Assembly (NCBI GenBank): GCA_030684395.1
Contig: JAUXTT010000019.1
Coordinates: 62,001-126,000 of the forward strand
Direction: 5' to 3'
Length of the DNA stretch: 64,000 nucleotides
Origin: Bacteroidota bacterium
GTDB taxonomy: Bacteria; Bacteroidota; Bacteroidia; B-17B0; Aurantibacillaceae
Part shown: positions 1,680-37,105 of the stretch, piece after piece
Position numbering within the stretch: position 1 is the first letter of the stretch
Layout of the letters: the number at the start of each line of letters is the position of its first letter
Made by a program: the position numbers and the translations under genes
The notes under the pieces: model-generated
The model's input: only the letters and a program-made list of their open reading frames with translations
Databases searched by the model: none
What the model was told of the DNA's origin: nothing

Positions 1680-3605
1680 ATGCAAATAGAAAAAATCATT
1701 CTGTATAGTAAAATTGGGCAGAAGAGAATAGTTGACTTTAAATTGGGGAAAGTCAATATTATTTCTGGAGAATCGAAATCGGGCAAGACAGCATTAATTG
1801 GAATTATAGATTATTGTCTTGCTAGTAACAGTTGCGATATATCTGAAGGTAAAATAAAGGATACAGTGTTTTTTTTCGCAATTGTTTTGAAATTTAATGA
1901 TGGAGAAAGGGTTTTTATTGCTAGGCAAAATCCGAATGTCAAGCAGGTTGCTTCAATTTCAACGGTTTGTTTAATTCGTAATATTGGAGTTGATACCCCA
2001 GAATTTGAGGATATTGAATCGAATTTTAATATTGAAAGCTTAAAAGATTTTCTGTCAAGCAAACTAGGCATTAATGAAAACATGCATGTCCCTGATAGTC
2101 TTACACGTGAACCTTTAAAGGCTAATTTTAAACATTCTAGATTTTATTGTTATCAACCGCAATACCTTATTGCTGATCCAAATCAATTGTTTTATAATCA
2201 AAATAAAGAATTTGTTCCCCAGTCAATAAAAGACACGCTTCCATATTTCCTGGGGGCAATTAATGAAGAAAGTTTAAGTATTGAATCCGAAATAGCTTAT
2301 TTGAAGAAAGAACTAAATAAGTTACAGCGGGAAAAGAGAGAATCTGAGAAAATCAAATCAGAAGGGAGTAGTCAGGCATTCTCTCTAATAGAAGAAGCTA
2401 AAGAAATCGGCTTAATAAATAGCGAGGCTCAAGTGAATACTGAAGTTTTGGCTTATGAACTTTTAGTGGAGATTTCAAATTGGGAATATAAGCCTCTTGC
2501 AATAAAATCGGAGAATAGAATTTCAAAGCAGCTTATCGAGTCCAGAAATGATCTAAGATTGGAATTGAATAAAATTGAAGATAATTTAAAGGCAGTTAAA
2601 GATTTTGCTAAAACTACTCTTGGTTATAACAACGAAGTTAGACAACAGGAAATCAGATTGTCAAGTATAAATATTTTGAATATCCCAGAAAATTCAAATA
2701 ACAACATCTGTCCGCTATGTGATAGTAAGTTAAAAACACCAATTCCATCAATCAAACAAATTAATAATTCTTTAACTCAAATTAGAGAGGATTTAAAAAG
2801 TACCAAAGTAGAAAGCCCAAGAATTCAGTCTTATATTGCTACGTTGAAAGAGCAGGAAGAAAAAATTCAAACGGATTTGAAAAGGGTGGAGAAGAGTATT
2901 AGTTCTATATATGAAGAAAATGAAAAGGCAAGAACATTAAGGGATTTAAATATACGAAGAGGGAAAATTTTAGGGCGAATTAGTTTGTTTCTAGAAAGTA
3001 TAAAAATGGAAAAGGAATCAAATGAATCAGAGGTGAGAATGACAAATTTGAAGAAAATTATTTCAACTCTTGAATCTCAAATTGACACCGAAAGTGAAAA
3101 GGAAAGGCTGTTGTCCATAATTAATAAAATTAATTTGCAAATGAGTAAATGGGTAGCAAAGCTAGATGTCGAGTATGATGATTCTCCAATTAGATTTGAC
3201 TTAAATAAATTAACCATTTATGTTGACACAGATACTAAACCAATAGCCTTACCGCAAATAGGAAGTGGAGCAAACTGGGTAGCTTACCATTTGTTGATTT
3301 TATTTGCATTACAAAAGCACTTTATTCAAAACCAAAGACCTGTTCCGAGCTTTTTAATTTTAGATCAACCGACTCAAGTTTATTATCCACCAGAAAAAAG
3401 TGATGAAATAATCAGTTCTGATGATATAGCGGTTGATAAGATGTTTAATTTCATGTTTGATGTAGTAGAGACTTTAAGTCCTTCTATGCAAGTAATAGTT
3501 ATGGATCACGCATATTTGAAAAACCAGAGGTTTGAAGACTCTGTTATTCAGGAATGGAGAAAAGGAAATAAATTGGTGCCGGAAGAATGGGAGTCTATAC
3601 ATTAA
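1680..3605 (+). CDS. ABC-3C system SMC-like ATPase (DUF3732 type)
   Basis: This is a 641-residue SMC/Rad50-like ABC ATPase. Walker A is GESKSGKT at about residues 30-37. A long coiled coil is split by a CPLC zinc-hook-like motif at about 344-347. The signature-like segment GSGANWVAYHL precedes Walker B, which reads LILDQP (about 557-563) and has Gln where classical ABC proteins have the catalytic Glu; this DQP form is what I recall for DUF3732. The H-loop is VMDHAYL (about 607-613). The hydrolysis cycle may therefore differ from standard ABC proteins. It is the last gene of the ABC-3C operon, 1 base after the middle component, and is followed by a strong terminator. It is expected to act with the two upstream proteins, probably on nucleic acid, by analogy with Rad50 and SMC proteins. 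Confidence 0.88.
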   Translation: MQIEKIILYSKIGQKRIVDFKLGKVNIISGESKSGKTALIGIIDYCLASNSCDISEGKIKDTVFFFAIVLKFNDGERVFIARQNPNVKQVASISTVCLIRNIGVDTPEFEDIESNFNIESLKDFLSSKLGINENMHVPDSLTREPLKANFKHSRFYCYQPQYLIADPNQLFYNQNKEFVPQSIKDTLPYFLGAINEESLSIESEIAYLKKELNKLQREKRESEKIKSEGSSQAFSLIEEAKEIGLINSEAQVNTEVLAYELLVEISNWEYKPLAIKSENRISKQLIESRNDLRLELNKIEDNLKAVKDFAKTTLGYNNEVRQQEIRLSSINILNIPENSNNNICPLCDSKLKTPIPSIKQINNSLTQIREDLKSTKVESPRIQSYIATLKEQEEKIQTDLKRVEKSISSIYEENEKARTLRDLNIRRGKILGRISLFLESIKMEKESNESEVRMTNLKKIISTLESQIDTESEKERLLSIINKINLQMSKWVAKLDVEYDDSPIRFDLNKLTIYVDTDTKPIALPQIGSGANWVAYHLLILFALQKHFIQNQRPVPSFLILDQPTQVYYPPEKSDEIISSDDIAVDKMFNFMFDVVETLSPSMQVIVMDHAYLKNQRFEDSVIQEWRKGNKLVPEEWESIH

Positions 3606-3660
3606 AAATAAGAATTTAACCCGTTCACACGGATTTCCAATCGGTACTCCTCACAAAAAA

Positions 3661-3688
3661 AAACGCCCACATCACTGCGGGCGTTTTT
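3661..3688. terminator. Bidirectional rho-independent terminator
   Basis: AAACGCCC (3661-3668) pairs with GGGCGTTT (3679-3686), flanked by an A-run and a T-run. It separates the ABC-3C operon (+) from the convergent serine palmitoyltransferase-like gene (-) and probably serves both. Confidence 0.85.
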
Positions 3689-3712
3689 CATTTGAACGAT
3701 TTCAAACAGTAT

Positions 3713-4960
3713 TTAATCAAAAGCAGCAATTTTTTCTGCCATGTATTTTCCTGTTTTTAATTTATCTACAATTTTCGAGAAACATTCGATTGTATAGTTT
3801 ACATCTTCTAAAGTGTGAACCGCAGTAGGGATCAAACGTAAGATGATCATTCCTTTTGGTACAACAGGGTAAACTACCATTGAACAGAAAATATTGAAGT
3901 TCTCTCTTAAATCTAAAATTAAGTTAGTAGCCTCAGGAATAGAACCATTCATATAAACCGGAGTAACCATTGTATTGGTATCTCCGATGTTAAATCCTGC
4001 TTTTATCAATCCGCTTTGTAACGCACGGGTTATTTCCCAGCACTTCTCACGCAATTCAGGATGAGTATTCATTAACTCTAAACGCTTTTGTGCACCAACA
4101 ACTAAAGGCATTGGTAATGCTTTCGCAAATATTTGAGAACGCATATTGTAACGTAAAAACTCAACAACGTTTTCAGTAGATGCGATAAAACCTCCGATCA
4201 ATGCAAACGATTTTGCAAATGTTCCAAAGTAAATATCAATACCATCCTGACATCCTTGTGCCTGCCCCGTTCCACCACCTTTTGGCCCCATGATACCAAT
4301 ACCATGAGCATCATCTACTAATAATCTGAAATTATATTTTTTCTTTAATGCAACTATTTCTTTTAATTTGCCCTGATCACCACGCATTCCAAATACACCT
4401 TCGGTTATAACTAAAATAGCTCCACCTGTTGTTTCTGCTAATTTGGTAGCGCGCTCCATTTGTTTCTCAAAATCAACCATGTCGTTGTGCTTGTATACAT
4501 AACGCTTACCCATGTGCAAACGAACACCATCTAAAATACAAGCATGACTTTCTGCATCATAAACAATCACATCATGTCTGTCAACCAAACAATCGATACA
4601 AGAAACCATTGCCTGATAACCGAAGTTGCAAAGGATAGCATCTTCTTTCTCAACTAATTTTGCTAAACCAGCTTCTAACGCTTCGTGGTTGTTTGAGTTT
4701 CCACTCATCATACGAGCCCCCATTGGCAATGCTAAACCATATTGTGCAGCCCCATCAGCATCTGCTTTTCTAACTTCCGGGTGATTTGCCAAACCTAAAT
4801 AATTGTTCAAACTCCAGTTAAGGCGCTTTCTTCCTCTGAACACCATATGCGGGCTTACTTCACCTTCCAGCTTAGGGAAAGTAAAATATCCGTGTGATTC
4901 TTTAGAATGTTCTCCAATTGGTCCTCTGTTGTTTTTGATCTTTTCGAAAATATCTTTCAT
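3713..4960 (-). CDS. spt: PLP-dependent alpha-oxoamine synthase, probably serine palmitoyltransferase
   Basis: This 415-residue enzyme belongs to the alpha-oxoamine synthase family (serine palmitoyltransferase, KBL, BioF, HemA), which condenses an amino acid with an acyl-CoA on pyridoxal phosphate. Visible motifs are NNYLGL near the N-terminus, VDDAHGIGIMGP (PLP-ring Asp and His), and GTFAKSFALIGG with the PLP-binding Lys. The GTFAKS lysine loop and the lack of biotin genes nearby favour serine palmitoyltransferase, the first step of sphingolipid synthesis in Bacteroidota, over glycine C-acetyltransferase. I chose the ATG at 4960; an in-frame TTG 12 codons upstream would add residues of poor character. 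It stands alone, convergent with the ABC-3C operon and divergent from bamD. Substrate choice cannot be proven from sequence. Confidence 0.75.
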   Translation of the reverse strand: MKDIFEKIKNNRGPIGEHSKESHGYFTFPKLEGEVSPHMVFRGRKRLNWSLNNYLGLANHPEVRKADADGAAQYGLALPMGARMMSGNSNNHEALEAGLAKLVEKEDAILCNFGYQAMVSCIDCLVDRHDVIVYDAESHACILDGVRLHMGKRYVYKHNDMVDFEKQMERATKLAETTGGAILVITEGVFGMRGDQGKLKEIVALKKKYNFRLLVDDAHGIGIMGPKGGGTGQAQGCQDGIDIYFGTFAKSFALIGGFIASTENVVEFLRYNMRSQIFAKALPMPLVVGAQKRLELMNTHPELREKCWEITRALQSGLIKAGFNIGDTNTMVTPVYMNGSIPEATNLILDLRENFNIFCSMVVYPVVPKGMIILRLIPTAVHTLEDVNYTIECFSKIVDKLKTGKYMAEKIAAFD

Positions 4961-23929: not shown

Positions 23930-23937
23930 TATTTTTG
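23930..23937 (+). promoter_or_regulatory. Putative -7 promoter element of the giant SPOR protein
   Basis: TATTTTTG matches TAnnTTTG exactly. It overlaps a TTG at 23935 that would otherwise be a possible start, which argues for initiation at the ATG at 23983 or 24004. Confidence 0.5.
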
Positions 23938-23982
23938 TTAAAATATTCGGAACATATCAGTACTAAAGACCGTTTAAAACCT

Positions 23983-26900
23983 ATGTTTTCATGTGCAAAT
24001 CTTATGATTAAGTGTAAAGCACATGCTAAAAGGCTGTTGAATACTGAATTTTATACAAAAAGGCTGAATTTTATCTCAAAAGGGTATTTCCTGACCGCTT
24101 TATTCCTGATTTTCTTTTCTATTTTCAATCCTCAGGAGGGATATTCTCAATATGCTAACGAAGAAGAACTAAAAAAGCAAGCTGCTCAGTACTTTGAGGA
24201 CGAAGATTATGGGAATGGTTACAAAGCATATTCTCAATTGGTATCCAATTATCCAAAAGATGCAAATTATAATTACCGATTGGGAGTTTGTATGCTTTTT
24301 ACTGAACCCGACAAGAAAAAATGTTACACCTATCTCGAGTTTGCAAATAAAAATATTAAAGACTCGGAAAAGGAAGCCAAATTTTATTTAGCAAAAGCTT
24401 ACCATACCAATTTTAGGTTTGATGAAGCAATAAAATTGTATACCCAATACAAAGAGATAGCATCTTCTTCCATGGTTAAAAAATTATTGGTAGATAGAGA
24501 AATTGATGCGTGTAAAAATGGTAAGCGTCTACTAAGTAATTTGAATGAGCTGGTTGTTTTAGAAAAAAAGCAATTAGTTGAAAGCGATTATTTCAGAAGT
24601 TATAACCTTAAGGATATTGGGGGAAAATTGTTGGTGAAGCCGAATGATTTTTTTACGGCTGCGGATAAAAAGAAAAAAAACAAATCGATCGTTTATCTTC
24701 CAAAGTCGGGTGACCAGTTGTATTATGCGAGTTACGGATCAGGAGATAACAAAGATATTTACATTGTAAGAAAGCTGCCTAACGGACAATGGAGTAAAGC
24801 AGAGAATATTGGAAATGCAATCAATACTCCATTTGATGAGGATTTTCCTTTTCTTCATCCAAACGGAAGAGTGCTGTACTTTGCTTCCAAAGGGCATAAC
24901 AGTATGGGAGGTTATGATATTTTTAAATCAGAGTTTAATGAATCTGCAGGCGTTTGGGGTAAACCTGTTAATATGGACTTCCCAATTAACTCGCCCAATG
25001 ATGATATTTTGTTTGTGACCGATTCTTTGGAGAAAACAGCTTATTTTTCTTCCTCAAGACAAAGTCCTTCCGGTAAGATAGATGTTTTTAAAATTAACAC
25101 AGAAAGAAGACCGCCTGAATTTATATTTATAAAAGGAAGTGTTTTGAAGAAAGTAGAAGGTCAGAGTTTGGCCTCGAAAATTTCAGTTAAAGACATAGGT
25201 GTTGGAGAAAATGTGGGAAGTTTTCAGGCTTCGGAAACAGGCGGCTATCTCGCTAAAATTCCAAATGGCGGTAAATTTATTTTTACCGTAGAAACACCGG
25301 GATTCCCTACACAATCTGAAGGCATTGATATTCCAGTTAACAATTCTTTACTTCCCTATAAGCAATACATAAGTTACGATGGGCAAAAACTGGTGATTCA
25401 AAATACATTTGAAACCAACAAAGAAGATGAAAATGGTTATTTAGATTATCTGGAAGTAATTGAAGAAAAGGCTAAGTTGGATGTCAATGCATCTGATTTT
25501 TCCTCTCAACCAATTACGAATAATGGTACAAATAATACCGGTTCAAATAATGGAACAAACACAACCAATACTAATTCTGGAAATGATAATTCAACCGGCA
25601 ATAATGCTAACAACGGAAATCAAAACACCAATGCTAATACAAATTTAAACAATCAGCAGTTAGAGCAAATGGCATTTACGGATGCTAAAGAGTTGAAAGA
25701 TGAGGCGGATAAACTTAAGGCGGATGCAAATGATGCGTTTGCATTTGTCAATAACCAAAAAGTAGAAGCAGATCAGAAAGAAAAAGAAGCTAATGTTGTT
25801 ATTGAACAAGCCAATTCCGAACAAGATTTGAGTAAAAAGGAATTGTTGCTCACAAAAGCAAATGAACTGAAAGAAGAAGCAAAAAAATTAAAAGATCAGG
25901 CTACTCTTGCAGAGAACATTGCCAAACAGTTAGATATTGATGCAAGTAATAAACAAAAAGAAGCAGAACTTCAACAGAAATACGCCGAGCAGTTAAAAGA
26001 AGTAAATAAGTCTAAAAACAACAAAGAGGCTTTAGCGAAACTGGAGGCTATTCAGAAGGAGCAAACCTTATTGGGCGAGCAAAAAAGTACAACCAATGAA
26101 CTGGCCAATTCTATTAAGCTGGAATCGGGAAGAAAAGATGAAGAAATAGCTAAACTGCAACCTCTTATAGTTAAACAAAAGAACGAGGTAAAAGATATTC
26201 AAACTGAAATAAGCGGAATCGATTCTGAAATAAGTGGAACAAAAGATAAAGTATTACTGGAGAACTTAAAGGCTCAAAAAGAAGAATTGAATAATGAAAT
26301 AACTCTTAAAAATAATGAACTAAAAAGAAATGAAGATAAATTGATGTTGCTACAAAAAGAAAGTGATGCACTTAAAAGCCAGGCAGATTTTGCAAGTAAT
26401 ATGTTGACCCAGGTTAAGGAGCAGGATAATATTACATCTGTTGCTAACAATACAGGGAATAACGACGTTAATACTAATAACGGAACAAATAACGCAGGCA
26501 ACAATGCTTCCAATAATAATTCTACAGCAGCAAATAATAACACCAATTCAAATACAGGCAATAACAACACAAACACCACGACTAACAATGAAACCGCTTT
26601 AACAGGAATCCAAAAAGATCAAAAGGTATTTGAGAATGAAATGGTGAAGTTAAATTCGCAGCCGGAGTCATCTAACCGTTACGAAGAGCAAAATAAATTG
26701 GTGGCAAATTATATTGCAGCTGTAGATAAGGAGATTATAAACCAGAAGGCAGATTTAAAAAAGGCGAAAACTGCTGCTGAAAAAACAGCAATCAATAATA
26801 AAATTAAAGAGCTTGAACAGGATAAGCTGGATAAGGAAGATGATAAGCGGATTAACGATTCAAAGATTGCTTACTTTAAGAATATTGAAAATAATTCTGT

Positions 26901-29900
26901 TGCCAACAACGGAAACAATAATACGAGCACAAACAGCAATACTACTAACAATGGAAATGTAACAAATACTACAAATACCGGTAATGATAATTCCGCAAAC
27001 AATAATTCTACAAATGTTAATAATGGAGTAACTAATAATAATTCATCCAATACAGGAACCAGTACCGCAAATAATGCGGCTAATACAAATAGTACCAATA
27101 ATGCCTCAGGTACTGCTTTAGGGGAGAACAAGGAAAAGATTGATCAATTAAATACGGAAGCTGATAAATTAACAGAAGAGGCAGTTAAGCTTCGAAAGGA
27201 AACTGCTGCTCTTACAGGTACGAAGAAACAAGAAAATATTAAAAAAATCCAGGATCTGGAGAATCAAGCATCAGCAAAACGCTTTGACGCGGTAGTGTTG
27301 GTTTCAAAAGGTAATGAGGATGTGTATGTAAATAATCAAAAAACGATTGATGAATATATTCAGGCGAACGGGGATAAAAGTAACCCTGAAATTGCAAAAG
27401 CAAACACATTGTTGGCAGAAGCCCAAAACTTGTTTAATCAGGCGGTAAAAATTGAGCAGGAAGCTAATTCTGAACCCGATATTAATGCAAAAACAGCCTC
27501 GTACAGTAACGTGGAGGAAAAGGAAATACTTGCCCTGAAAAAACAAGAAGAGGCCGTGGCATTATATAAAAAGAATAACCCTGATTTTGTTCCAAGTTCA
27601 CAGAACAATACAGTTTCTACAAATAATAATAACACTAATAACGGAGCGGTAACAACTAATAATGGCACAAACGAAAACAACGGTGCGGTTACAAATAACA
27701 ATGCAACTAATAATGGAGCAGCAACTAATAATAATGGCACAAATGAAAATAATGGTGCGGTTACAAACAACAATGCTGCTAATAATGGAGTAGTAACTAA
27801 TAATACTGGTACAAATGAAAACAACGGTGCTGTTACAAATAACAATGCAACTAATAATGGAGCAGTAACTAATAATAATGGCACAAATGAAAATAATGGT
27901 ACTGCTACAAACAATACTTCAAATAATACCAATGCAACAAATCCGGAAGTTCAAAACAAAACAGTGGAATTGCAAAATGCAGCAGTAACTAAAAAACAAG
28001 GCTATACGAATGTATTGGAGCAATTAAAAACGAATGAAAATCAGGCAAACGGAACAAGCCCCGAAATACAGCAAAAAAAGAAAGAAGCGGAGCAGTTATT
28101 GAGTGCTGCTGATGAACTAATAAATGCAGCTAATTTAACCACTAATCCTAATGAGAAAAACCTGATGCTGGATGAAGCCAATCAAAAAATTGTATTGGCA
28201 ACAACCCAACTTAATGAGGCAAACGATTTAAGTAAACAATTACAAAGTCAAGCTGCAAACAATACAAATAATAATGTTGTAAGCAATAATTCGAATGCAA
28301 ATAACAATGCCGCGAATTCTAATTCAAATAACAATGTTGCAAATAATAACGCCACTAACACTAATACAGGAAATGATAACGCCACTAATAACAATAATAC
28401 AACAGCAACAACCAATACAGTAGTTCCTGTTGCCAATGGAAAGTTATCGGAAGCGCAAATAAAAGCTATTCAGGAATCACCTGATTATAAGAGTTTCACT
28501 ACACTTAATAATGAAGCTGTTAAATACACTGACATAGCAGATAAAGAAAGTTCCAAAGCAAAGAGTTTTTATGAGCAGGCTACAAATTATTTAAAAGAAT
28601 CAAATGATCTTCGTATTCAGTTGGATCAATTACCTGAGGGAGAGGAAAAGAAATTAAAACAGGAAGAAGCAATTAAACTTGATCACCTGGCAAATCAGTT
28701 TAAAGCAAAAGGAGATTCTGTAAATGAATTAGCATCTAATACCCGTGCGTTTGCGGAAAGTAAAAAAATGGAAGCAGATGCTTTTGCCCAATCCCTTGAC
28801 AAAAAAGTGTATGAAGATATTTTAATTGCCTCGGGAAATCAAGCAAATGGTGTTGCTACAAACAATGGTAACAATACTGCGAATAATAATTCAGGAAATG
28901 TAAATACATCAAATCCAAAATATGAGGGATATTCCCCAACTTATGCAGACAACGCAGGGAAGTATGAATCGGATCTGAACACTTTCAGCAATTCAGCCGA
29001 GAACGAAGGAAACCTGAAAGGAAAGAACATTATTTTAGCTAATTATAACAAAGCAATTGATACGGAGATTGCTGCGCAAAAAAAGAAGTTGACCACGGCA
29101 AACGCTGCGGATAAAACAAAGATCAATCAACGTATTAAAGATTTAGGAACGCAAAAAACAAACAATAATTCTACTATTGCAACTAACAATGCAAAAATAA
29201 AAGATCTTAATCAAGCAACCGCGACAAACAATAGTGGCAATACAAATAATACAAATAATTCGGGAAATACAAATAGTACAGCTAATAATACAAACACTAA
29301 CAATTCAGGTAACAACAACACAAATGCTAATAATTCCGGAAATAATACTGCCTCAAACAACACCACAAACACGACTGGAAATAATAACGAAACTAATAAC
29401 AACTCAACTGCGGCAATTACCACTAATGGAATAGAAATAAAAAACGGGAATGCTTATTCTGCGGCACGCCCAATTCCTATAGATGAAAAATTGCCTAACG
29501 GAATTATTTTTGCAGTACAAATCGGAGCATTTAAAAACCAAATCCCTAATGATTTGTTTAAAGGCTTGTCACCTCTTAGAGGAGAAACTACTGCTCAGGG
29601 ATTAATACGTTATCAGGCCGGTAGATTTATCAAATTTGAAGAAGCAAACGGTGTAAAGAATGATATAAAGAAGTTAGGATACAGGGATGCCTTTGTTGTG
29701 GTTTATAAAGATGGCCAACGCATCTCTTTAGGCGAAGCAATGAATGAGTTAAAAAGCCAGGGAGTTACGATAAATGTTAATCCAAACGAAACAGCTGGAA
29801 TTACTTCTAATACAAATATCCCAACTGCTAATACCGTTGCAAGTACAGTGGGTAATAATAATCCGGCAAATAATACATCAACCAATACAAATACTTCCTT

Positions 29901-30690
29901 TCCGGCAGCCAATGTAAATGCTACTGAACTGAGTAATGTGCAGGGAATGTTATTTACCGTGCAAATTGGTGTTTACTCAAATGAAGCCTCTTCAACTCAA
30001 CTTTACAATCTTAAACCTATTTATCGCGAGCGTCTACCAAACGGATATTATCGCTATACGGCCGGTGTTTATAATAATATAGATAAAGTTAAGGCAGACA
30101 GAGCTAAGGTTAATGGATTAGGTATTTCAGACGCTTTTGTGTCGGCATATTTGAATGGAGAAAGAATAAAAATTGCAGACGCATTAGCGAAAATGGGCTC
30201 CGGAGATAATTTACAATTCCCGCCTGAAAACCCTATTCAGTTTGGTGGGGGCACTTCAACCAATGAAACACTTCCTGCTACTAATAATGCTACAACCTCT
30301 AATACACCTGCTGTAAATACAAATACTGTCACTACAACAGGTACACAACCTTTTAATAATGGTGTTACTCAAGGACCGCAACCAACTGCCGAAAATGGTG
30401 TGAAGTTAAATGAAGAAGGTATTACATTTAAGGTACAGATTGGTGCATATAAAAATCAGGTTCCGCAAAATGTAGCTAATAACTTCATGAAAATTAAAAC
30501 ATGGCCGATAGGAGCTAATCAGGTTAACGGTTTATATATTTATACTGTTGGTTCTTTTGTAGATAATAAGTCAGCACGACCATTATTGGAAGAGGCAAAA
30601 GCAAACGGTATTGCGGATGCCTTTATTACTGTTTACAAGGATGGAAAAAAACTTTATGGTGCGGAAGCAAGTTCTTATTTGAACAGATAA
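23983..30690 (+). CDS. Giant TPR-PD40 envelope protein with Asn-rich linkers and three SPOR-like domains
   Basis: This 2235-residue protein is by far the largest in the window. It has a signal peptide (FLTALFLIFFSIFNPQEGYSQ), TPR-like repeats (24160-24560), PD40 propeller strands such as DQLYYASYGSGDNKDIYIV and GRVLYFASKG (24700-25110) and a carboxypeptidase-regulatory-like domain (25125-25420). Then six charged helical segments alternate with Asn/Thr-rich linkers (first at 25505, last ending about 29430). Three SPOR-like domains follow (29455-29760, 29940-30200, 30415-30690), each with VQIGAY or VQIGVY, a second strand near AGRF or TVGSF, and DAFV. SPOR domains bind glycan strands stripped of peptides. 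The front half matches the PorE-like protein at 9608. The start at 23983 is uncertain; 24004 is an alternative. A smaller relative lies at 43527. Function unknown; a cell-wall-linked envelope role is inferred. Confidence 0.8.
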   Translation: MFSCANLMIKCKAHAKRLLNTEFYTKRLNFISKGYFLTALFLIFFSIFNPQEGYSQYANEEELKKQAAQYFEDEDYGNGYKAYSQLVSNYPKDANYNYRLGVCMLFTEPDKKKCYTYLEFANKNIKDSEKEAKFYLAKAYHTNFRFDEAIKLYTQYKEIASSSMVKKLLVDREIDACKNGKRLLSNLNELVVLEKKQLVESDYFRSYNLKDIGGKLLVKPNDFFTAADKKKKNKSIVYLPKSGDQLYYASYGSGDNKDIYIVRKLPNGQWSKAENIGNAINTPFDEDFPFLHPNGRVLYFASKGHNSMGGYDIFKSEFNESAGVWGKPVNMDFPINSPNDDILFVTDSLEKTAYFSSSRQSPSGKIDVFKINTERRPPEFIFIKGSVLKKVEGQSLASKISVKDIGVGENVGSFQASETGGYLAKIPNGGKFIFTVETPGFPTQSEGIDIPVNNSLLPYKQYISYDGQKLVIQNTFETNKEDENGYLDYLEVIEEKAKLDVNASDFSSQPITNNGTNNTGSNNGTNTTNTNSGNDNSTGNNANNGNQNTNANTNLNNQQLEQMAFTDAKELKDEADKLKADANDAFAFVNNQKVEADQKEKEANVVIEQANSEQDLSKKELLLTKANELKEEAKKLKDQATLAENIAKQLDIDASNKQKEAELQQKYAEQLKEVNKSKNNKEALAKLEAIQKEQTLLGEQKSTTNELANSIKLESGRKDEEIAKLQPLIVKQKNEVKDIQTEISGIDSEISGTKDKVLLENLKAQKEELNNEITLKNNELKRNEDKLMLLQKESDALKSQADFASNMLTQVKEQDNITSVANNTGNNDVNTNNGTNNAGNNASNNNSTAANNNTNSNTGNNNTNTTTNNETALTGIQKDQKVFENEMVKLNSQPESSNRYEEQNKLVANYIAAVDKEIINQKADLKKAKTAAEKTAINNKIKELEQDKLDKEDDKRINDSKIAYFKNIENNSVANNGNNNTSTNSNTTNNGNVTNTTNTGNDNSANNNSTNVNNGVTNNNSSNTGTSTANNAANTNSTNNASGTALGENKEKIDQLNTEADKLTEEAVKLRKETAALTGTKKQENIKKIQDLENQASAKRFDAVVLVSKGNEDVYVNNQKTIDEYIQANGDKSNPEIAKANTLLAEAQNLFNQAVKIEQEANSEPDINAKTASYSNVEEKEILALKKQEEAVALYKKNNPDFVPSSQNNTVSTNNNNTNNGAVTTNNGTNENNGAVTNNNATNNGAATNNNGTNENNGAVTNNNAANNGVVTNNTGTNENNGAVTNNNATNNGAVTNNNGTNENNGTATNNTSNNTNATNPEVQNKTVELQNAAVTKKQGYTNVLEQLKTNENQANGTSPEIQQKKKEAEQLLSAADELINAANLTTNPNEKNLMLDEANQKIVLATTQLNEANDLSKQLQSQAANNTNNNVVSNNSNANNNAANSNSNNNVANNNATNTNTGNDNATNNNNTTATTNTVVPVANGKLSEAQIKAIQESPDYKSFTTLNNEAVKYTDIADKESSKAKSFYEQATNYLKESNDLRIQLDQLPEGEEKKLKQEEAIKLDHLANQFKAKGDSVNELASNTRAFAESKKMEADAFAQSLDKKVYEDILIASGNQANGVATNNGNNTANNNSGNVNTSNPKYEGYSPTYADNAGKYESDLNTFSNSAENEGNLKGKNIILANYNKAIDTEIAAQKKKLTTANAADKTKINQRIKDLGTQKTNNNSTIATNNAKIKDLNQATATNNSGNTNNTNNSGNTNSTANNTNTNNSGNNNTNANNSGNNTASNNTTNTTGNNNETNNNSTAAITTNGIEIKNGNAYSAARPIPIDEKLPNGIIFAVQIGAFKNQIPNDLFKGLSPLRGETTAQGLIRYQAGRFIKFEEANGVKNDIKKLGYRDAFVVVYKDGQRISLGEAMNELKSQGVTINVNPNETAGITSNTNIPTANTVASTVGNNNPANNTSTNTNTSFPAANVNATELSNVQGMLFTVQIGVYSNEASSTQLYNLKPIYRERLPNGYYRYTAGVYNNIDKVKADRAKVNGLGISDAFVSAYLNGERIKIADALAKMGSGDNLQFPPENPIQFGGGTSTNETLPATNNATTSNTPAVNTNTVTTTGTQPFNNGVTQGPQPTAENGVKLNEEGITFKVQIGAYKNQVPQNVANNFMKIKTWPIGANQVNGLYIYTVGSFVDNKSARPLLEEAKANGIADAFITVYKDGKKLYGAEASSYLNR
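27661..27948 (+). repeat. Four 72-bp tandem repeats inside the giant gene
   Basis: Repeat starts are 27661, 27733, 27805 and 27877, exactly 72 bases apart, coding for a 24-residue unit containing GTNENNGAVTNNNATNNGA. Copies 1-3 are nearly identical and copy 4 is degraded at its end. The length is a multiple of three, so copy number can change without frameshift. Confidence 0.92.
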
Positions 30691-35580: not shown

Positions 35581-35630
35581 TTATAAGTAGCCAAATGTAT
35601 CAAAAAAAGTATAGTTTTGGCTGCTTATAA
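35581..35630. repeat. Left 50-bp palindromic repeat at the ATPase gene end
   Basis: TTATAAGTAGCCAAA (35581-35595) is complementary to TTTGGCTGCTTATAA (35616-35630) with one mismatch. It is nearly identical to the copy at 37056-37105. Each arm contains a TAnnTTTG match (TAGTTTTG 35612-35619 on +; TACATTTG on -, 35592-35599). The ATPase stop codon lies inside the right arm. Confidence 0.92.
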
Positions 35631-37046
35631 TTCGAGAAATAAATGCTCCATAGTGAGTTCGTTTTGCACATATTGCCTTTTGTATTGGTTAGGACTTAAG
35701 CCGTAAGTAGTGATGAAAGTGGTAAATATGCTTTTTTTTGTTTTAGTGCCGCTAATAAAACTATTGATCTTGTTTGTGATTTCATTGCAGTACTTTTTAT
35801 CCAATACGTACTCCGCATTATAAAATTTCATTTCACACAAATTGATCACATTATCATCTCTGTCAATAAGTAAGTCAATTTGCGCGCCGTTTCGGGTACT
35901 TTTACTGGTCCAGCTCCCGTGTGTTGAATGTATTCCGCTAATTTTAAGACCTTCTTTAATTTGTTCAATGTGCTTTAGGCAAGTGGTTTCAAAACTAAAT
36001 CCTGACCAGATTTTATAAGATTGTTGACCCTGCATTTTCATCCAAATGCTTTTATTGGAAGGTTTTGTGTTTTCAATAAATTTAATGTAGAACATCGAGT
36101 ATTCATCTGCGAGTCGGTAAACGGCATCTTTAGATCCTTTATAAGGAGTGTATTTTTCTATGAAGCCGGACTCCTCCAGGTCTTCTAAAGTTTTTGTTAA
36201 TGTACCTCCCGAATTTATTTTACTTTTCAGAAGTATATTATTTCTTGTGAGTCCTTTTCGAACAGTGGCTAAGGTTCTTATAATTGTTTCATGATTATCG
36301 TATTGGTCAAATAAAGATGCAAATACATTATTAAATTCGGTTCTAAGGAATCCGTTTTTAGAAAAACATAATCTATCAAGTAGTTGTGCAACACTTTCTC
36401 CCGGAATTATTTTTTCTAAATAATGTGGCACTCCTCCCATGGCCATGTGAACCTGTAAAATTTCGTAACGGGAAAGTTTGACCTTGTTGTGTTTTAATAA
36501 TTGCTCTGTTTCGTTAAGATTAAAAGGATTTAATTGTATTTGTTGTGTTAATCTGTTGTGCAAGCCTCCTTTATTTTTTATAATATTTTTTATCATGTAG
36601 GATGCCGCAGAGCCACAAATTACAACAACAAGGTCTTTTCTTTTTGATGCATAGCTATTCCAAAAGTTATCGAAGGCTCCGAGAAAATTTGATTTTCGGG
36701 TATCCAGCCATGGGAATTCATCAATGAAGATTACTTTTTTCTGTTTTGATTTTAGTTTGTTAAGGAATTTACTTAGCTGATAAAACGCTTCGATCCAATC
36801 AGATGAATGTTTACTTTTTGAGCTTTTAGCAGATAACGTTAAATTAAAATTTTTGAGTTGATCTCTAAACGACGCTTTATGTATTCCCGAAAATTCAAAC
36901 TGAATATGATTTTTATAGACTTCACGAATAAGATATGTTTTTCCTATTCTCCGTCTTCCATACACTACAATAAGCTCGGATCTATTGCTTTTTAAAGCAC
37001 CTGTTAAAAGAGTGATTTCTTGTTTTCGCCCAACCAATGATTTCAT
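35625..37046 (-). CDS. AAA ATPase with C-terminal PD-(D/E)xK nuclease-like domain (DUF234 type)
   Basis: This 473-residue protein has Walker A GRRRIGKT at residues 30-37, Walker B VIFIDE at 105-110, a winged-helix-like middle (about 255-310) and a C-terminal DUF234 region with a nuclease-like core: Glu at 353 (SFETTCL), Asp at 391 (AQIDLLID) and E405-x-K407 (LCEMKFYN). This is the archaeal-type ATPase-DUF234 architecture, spread patchily in bacteria and archaea and of unknown function. It starts 10 bases from the right 50-bp repeat and its stop lies in the left repeat. The TACATTTG element in the right repeat (37067-37074) is its likely promoter. It may be a mobile unit or a self-regulated conflict gene; neither is shown. 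Confidence 0.85.
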   Translation of the reverse strand: MKSLVGRKQEITLLTGALKSNRSELIVVYGRRRIGKTYLIREVYKNHIQFEFSGIHKASFRDQLKNFNLTLSAKSSKSKHSSDWIEAFYQLSKFLNKLKSKQKKVIFIDEFPWLDTRKSNFLGAFDNFWNSYASKRKDLVVVICGSAASYMIKNIIKNKGGLHNRLTQQIQLNPFNLNETEQLLKHNKVKLSRYEILQVHMAMGGVPHYLEKIIPGESVAQLLDRLCFSKNGFLRTEFNNVFASLFDQYDNHETIIRTLATVRKGLTRNNILLKSKINSGGTLTKTLEDLEESGFIEKYTPYKGSKDAVYRLADEYSMFYIKFIENTKPSNKSIWMKMQGQQSYKIWSGFSFETTCLKHIEQIKEGLKISGIHSTHGSWTSKSTRNGAQIDLLIDRDDNVINLCEMKFYNAEYVLDKKYCNEITNKINSFISGTKTKKSIFTTFITTYGLSPNQYKRQYVQNELTMEHLFLEL

Positions 37047-37055
37047 GGTATATAA

Positions 37056-37105
37056 TTATAAGTAGCCAAATGTAACAAAAAAATAGTAGTTTTGGCTACT
37101 TATAA
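37056..37105. repeat. Right 50-bp palindromic repeat with outward and inward promoter elements
   Basis: TTATAAGTAGCCAAA (37056-37070) is a perfect inverted match to TTTGGCTACTTATAA (37091-37105). It is nearly identical to the left copy. TAnnTTTG matches lie on both strands: TACATTTG on - (37067-37074), serving the ATPase, and TAGTTTTG on + (37087-37094), pointing towards the cupin-GNAT gene end. Confidence 0.92.

Follow-up and report, generated by a model that had tools for sequence, protein, structure and literature searches.

A 473-aa ATPase-nuclease gene bracketed by two 50-bp palindromes

The window, a 64,000-nt stretch of a Bacteroidota contig, encodes on its reverse strand an ATPase-nuclease whose gene is bracketed by two palindromes (Table 1). 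Both were present as described in the initial annotation, each an inverted repeat with arms of approximately 15 bp, the left copy lying over the stop codon and the right copy just 5' of the ATG. The two copies are direct repeats of each other over 52 nt. TAnnTTTG is the promoter word at position -7 in Bacteroidota. Such words had been reported on both strands of each copy; the coding-strand word in the right copy was recovered, and the claim for both strands is weaker family-wide according to the strand counts given below. Exact matches to the arms occur in the whole 4.87-Mb genome at this unit only. The canonical pattern TATAN4GCCAAAN14-22TTTGGCN4TATA has two sites in the source genome, both at the window unit, and its reversed control had no match there. 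Elsewhere in the window, positions 23935-30690 (+) encode a protein of 2251 aa in which long low-complexity runs are rich in Asn and Thr and the region near the C-terminus has apparent SPOR-like repeats.

Table 1. Features of the ATPase-nuclease unit, in positions of the window
Feature	Position	Strand	Evidence or remark
ATPase-nuclease ORF, 473 aa, PDC-S27 family	35625..37046	-	PF01637, E 5.6e-22; PDLC04984, E 4.7e-195
Upstream 50-bp palindrome, 9 bases 5' of the ATG, over the probable promoter	37056..37105	-	
TACATTTG, match to TAnnTTTG	37067..37074	-	Inner right arm of the upstream palindrome; coding strand
Downstream 50-bp palindrome, overlapping the stop codon	35581..35630	-	90% identical to the upstream copy, direct orientation
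Walker A GRRRIGKT, residues 30-37	36936..36959	-	Kept in homologs
Walker B FIDE, residues 107-110	36717..36728	-	Kept in homologs
Predicted winged-helix domain, candidate palindrome-binding part	36111..36302	-	Structure model and fold matches
PD-(D/E)XK nuclease core with D391, E405 and K407	35709..35927	-	Conservation, model and superfamily assignment of PDC-S27 in PMC12988326

Family assignment and predicted architecture of the protein

The PADLOC profile PDLC04984 (PDC-S27) spans residues 1-470 of the 473-aa protein, and the Pfam match is ATPase_2. The earlier label 'DUF234-like' is imprecise, given PF01637 as the Pfam match and PDC-S27 as the family match. Walker A (G30-T37), Walker B (D109, E110) and the residues D391, E405 and K407 are intact in the window protein, as had been noted. 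Among 50 homologs, D109-E110, Q389, D391, E405 and K407 are invariant and Walker A is conserved at nearly all positions. A sequence-only search for a relative of solved structure gave none, but a fold search matched structures of PaBY2304 (2QEN), a STAND protein, Orc1/Cdc6, maltose-system (MalT-type) proteins and NLRs. In the AlphaFold2 model (pLDDT 92, pTM 0.90), helices 249-259, 268-275 and 281-293 and strands 296-299 and 309-312 make up a winged helix. The modelled architecture is an AAA+/STAND ATPase followed by the winged helix, with the nuclease residues in the C-terminal part; it is this order of ATPase and winged helix that resembles Orc1/Cdc6, STAND regulators (MalT-like) and PaBY2304. 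To our knowledge, Orc1/Cdc6 and MalT have no C-terminal PD-(D/E)XK nuclease.

The protein combines an ATPase domain with a PD-(D/E)XK-type nuclease domain that retains its catalytic residues; it matches PDC-S27 of PADLOC-DB over its full length and shares the domain architecture of that family. PDC-S27 is a single-gene phage-defence candidate in PADLOC-DB, predicted through guilt-by-embedding. PMC12988326 describes it as an ATPase with a fused PD-(D/E)XK domain and places it among the commonest candidate defence genes in archaea and bacteria; according to the same paper, anti-phage activity is pending for most PDC families. The putative defence role of the window protein derives only from this PADLOC guilt-by-embedding assignment.

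Palindromes accompany the gene family

The source genome contains two more family members with 47-48% identity. The member on contig C29 lies between two 50-bp palindromes that differ from those of the window unit, and the one on contig C20 is preceded by three palindromes in tandem. Homologs were sampled from a public-genome scan (n = 80) and from 87 related genomes, 18 of which contained 29 copies. Palindromes were located upstream of 88 and downstream of 28 of the 109 scored homologs. After clustering at 80% protein identity, 67 of 84 non-redundant homologs had an upstream and 24 a downstream palindrome, compared with 2.6% and 3.9%, respectively, of 389 neighbouring genes of the same loci (Fisher p of 6e-54 upstream and 1e-10 downstream). 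At the threshold used, an upstream palindrome was not seen in approximately 20% of homologs; the downstream copy was not found in approximately 70% of units. Palindromes were also present upstream of the Butyrivibrio, Emticicia and Segatella plasmid homologs and of the homolog in Wolbachia phage WO, and a scan of viral contigs yielded two homologs, both with an upstream palindrome and one (L199) a two-ended unit. The upstream palindrome is therefore found in other phyla and on mobile elements as well. Homologous genes elsewhere do have such ends, and the palindromes are a trait of the gene family. More distant relatives vary: several have shorter inverted repeats near the start, and two haloarchaeal relatives had no inverted repeat at the threshold. 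Haloarchaeal loci L280, L281 and L284 share a short near-palindrome, about TCATTATCGCGATAATCATTA, just 5' of the start codon in promoter position.

Palindromes within one unit are 76% alike, versus 53% between units, so that one factor probably reads both copies of a unit. Between the nearest upstream palindrome and the ATG there are typically 1-10 bp. Of 88 such nearest copies, 46 have TAnnTTTG on the coding strand and 14 have it on the opposite one (36 and 9 of 67 in the non-redundant set). An inverted repeat overlapping the gene's own promoter recurs across homologs in this way. In downstream copies the word has no strand bias (5 versus 6 of 28). Arms thus persist where a promoter would serve no purpose, as would be expected if recognition maintains them and the upstream copy has a promoter in addition. 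Distances between the centres of tandem upstream sites concentrate at 51-56 bp; spacings of 54, 65, 76, 87 and 97 bp are suggestive of helical phasing, in too few independent cases.

The canonical palindrome is nearly exclusive to the gene. Across the 87 genomes of the taxonomic family it has 10 sites, all adjoining a PDC-S27 gene, and its reversed control has none. When 395 Bacteroidia genomes were scanned, 21 matched the pattern, and the examined site was beside the gene in 17, a chance coding match in one and solitary in three. The search of other Bacteroidota genomes proposed in the initial annotation thus found the repeats almost exclusively beside the ATPase gene and not at many unrelated places. 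The solitary palindromes (L219:1501-1547, L224:1501-1547 and L230:1501-1548) have no PDC-S27 gene within 1.5 kb and are possible scars; the one in L224 is located ~420 bp upstream of an apparent DUF4143-type ATPase (of the PDC-S01 kind, as judged by eye).

The PDC-S27 family is already known. No description of the palindromes was found in the open-access literature, a scope outside which most subscription journals lie, and the PDC-S27 passages of two papers do not mention palindromes, promoter overlap or unit boundaries.

Gain, loss and movement of the unit

The window unit is flanked by a cupin-acetyltransferase gene on one side and a DinB-family gene on the other, and its counterpart in two other genomes (G025 and G043, 70% nucleotide identity) lies between dapD and cmk. 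In several relatives dapD and cmk nearly abut, with neither unit nor palindrome between them. This comparison of orthologous loci, which had been suggested at the outset, found gene and palindromes present at some sites and absent in relatives; occupied and empty dapD-cmk sites indicate that they were gained or lost together, the unoccupied sites being too diverged for exact junctions. The absence of a target-site duplication at the window unit was confirmed, and none of at least 7 bp was found in 25 two-ended units; some true transposons make no target duplication.

Five relocated units that are 87-95% identical (L041, L043, L045, L046 and L049) share a segment from about ATG-213 to stop+110, with the palindromes inside. 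These near-identical units, which occupy different sites in freshwater Bacteroidota MAGs, have degenerate tRNA-like 3' pieces at their borders (GCTCCCC...CTCGAACC), a pattern suggestive of movement in tRNA-flanked cassettes. At L045:7969-8429 and L219:650-955 there are small GIY-YIG-type ORFs, the 3' end of which (LxQLVRVPHVRD) is apparently encoded by the 3' end of a tRNA-Asn; in L045, a 42-nt tRNA end is duplicated. We dropped palindrome-exact boundaries as proof of transposition, the flanks of G025 and G043 being unalignable and the relocated set sharing DNA beyond the palindromes. At ~70% identity only functional sequence still aligns, and a boundary at the palindromes is weak evidence at this distance because neutral flanks cannot be aligned even between G025 and G043, which share the same site.

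In Wolbachia phage WO (L170:2700-4600; L201, L202 and L203) the gene is located between capsid genes, with two palindromes upstream; where phages lack the gene, the corresponding spot holds a single palindrome of 33 bp, which may be a scar or an older element. Gene and palindromes were probably gained as a compact unit, and the gain is patchy. The description of the unit as self-contained is supported, its palindromes being near-exclusive, unit-specific, matching within the unit and gained with the gene. Other repeats occur near some copies: at L237:1832-1888, and also in L251, L253 and L255, a repeat of 40-55 nt, CATCCTGCATAATAAAGTTCGATATTTGTCGGGTTCCTTGTACA, precedes a terminator-like hairpin and adjoins three PDC-S27 copies in one genome (G192). 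The right flank of L241 (about 3600-4800), compared with G329 and G352, contains dispersed short repeats with ~50-86 matches per genome in the genus.

Alternative explanations

That the repeats are the ends of a mobile unit, as the initial annotation had proposed, is not established. A self-mobilising element, whose ATPase-nuclease would recognise the palindromes as ends and cut and move the unit like the RAYT/REP or IS200/IS605 transposases, is unlikely. It would account for a two-palindrome unit lying between unrelated genes here and in G025/G043, for the empty dapD-cmk sites, for two 85% identical units (L082 and L083) whose homology ends at the outer edge of the upstream palindrome, and for the two-ended unit in a viral contig, and the unit does encode a predicted nuclease. 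In common with RAYT/REP and IS200/IS605, palindromes flank a single gene and appear to vary along with its protein. However, the enzyme in those systems is a Y1 HUH transposase and here an ATPase with PD-(D/E)XK domain; target duplications are absent; the low identity of the three paralogs and their different palindromes argue against a burst of copies; the downstream copy accompanies a minority of homologs; and the five relocated units share a segment that reaches beyond the palindromes as far as tRNA-like remnants. In REP systems the palindromes proliferate throughout the genome, whereas here every canonical site in the 87 genomes adjoins the gene and the palindromes are not multiplied in the genomes examined. 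REP-like dispersal was rejected, given the restriction of exact arms to the window unit and of the canonical form almost exclusively to the gene. Terminal repeats at both ends and near-identical copies within a genome, as expected of a transposon, do not characterise these units, and autonomous transposition is not supported. Distinctly improbable is a further reading, in which the units are minimal mobile elements of a new class: an ATPase-nuclease resembling Orc/Cdc6 would recognise unit-specific terminal palindromes, or extruded cruciforms, and relocate its own gene with no target duplication, and defence or exclusion would be a by-product.

The palindromes might instead act as a DNA antidote or decoy, where binding of the palindrome or recognition of an extruded cruciform would hold the nuclease inactive, and palindrome loss or phage DNA would free it to cut; promoter overlap would then be secondary. 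Consistent with such a role, the arms stay long and well matched although their sequence turns over, extra copies at the stop codon have no promoter words, and the catalytic residues are invariant. Yet the site is strongly biased to the promoter, as TAnnTTTG is to the coding strand, which argues for regulation, and we regard the antidote as unlikely. It is very unlikely that the palindromes function as RNA hairpins, a leader attenuator and a terminator. At the 3' end of the transcript the downstream copy would fold into a hairpin, and in the window unit TTTTTT comes after it, but other downstream copies are without a T run, and no credible Rfam match was found (best hit 20.2 bits, gathering score 45). 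Moreover, the promoter word sits within the upstream palindrome, so that transcripts would start in or after its right arm and the upstream hairpin could not form. Host or phage regulatory elements that predate the arrival of the gene would explain why phages WO without the gene keep one palindrome and the gene-bearing phage has two. This origin is extremely unlikely overall, and for Bacteroidota already disfavoured, as the canonical palindrome there is almost never found away from the gene and the empty dapD-cmk sites are without it.

A putative autoregulated single-gene module

Of the two readings in the initial annotation, a promoter bound by the gene's own protein fits the sequence data better than a mobile unit. 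We consider it probable that the PDC-S27 protein binds its own palindrome via the winged helix and thereby represses its gene or is held inactive. The locus would then be a compact single-gene candidate-defence module with a private DNA recognition site, at which the AAA+/STAND-type ATPase with its winged helix would bind the ~50-bp palindrome as a symmetric multimer. As the upstream site lies over the promoter, binding there would repress the gene, so that a nuclease that could be harmful stays scarce or inactive. In units with two or three tandem upstream sites, or with a further site at the stop codon, binding might be cooperative or might close a loop across the gene. On a trigger, for example infection, the protein would come off its site, expression would rise and the PD-(D/E)XK nuclease would be freed. 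Gene and palindromes would spread together by horizontal transfer, with the palindrome co-diversifying with the protein. Counting against autoregulation, simple autorepression leaves the downstream copy without an evident function, and approximately 20% of homologs fell short of the threshold for an upstream palindrome; in addition, the winged helix did not stand out when protein regions were compared for co-variation with palindrome sequence.

Inverted repeats are the binding sites of Orc1/Cdc6 proteins, and in several archaea such repeats lie next to the gene for the protein. The sites of the window type differ in being located at promoter and stop codon and not at an origin. Autorepression through inverted repeats is known for the defence module AbiE, as described in PMC7319586, where a defence gene is controlled by a protein on inverted repeats in its own promoter; binding in the PDC-S27 unit is putative. 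In AbiE a separate antitoxin represses, whereas here one protein would be both regulator and effector, and the palindrome varies from unit to unit.

The family's own palindromes point to a candidate self-recognition or self-control switch. The palindrome on most Bacteroidota copies is a concrete candidate DNA ligand for the PDC-S27 ATPase-nucleases, the private palindromes predict cognate specificity unit by unit, and the palindrome serves as a sequence mark by which PDC-S27 units can be found and delimited. If the protein binds the palindrome, one protein would combine sensor-regulator and effector, as in STAND immune receptors.
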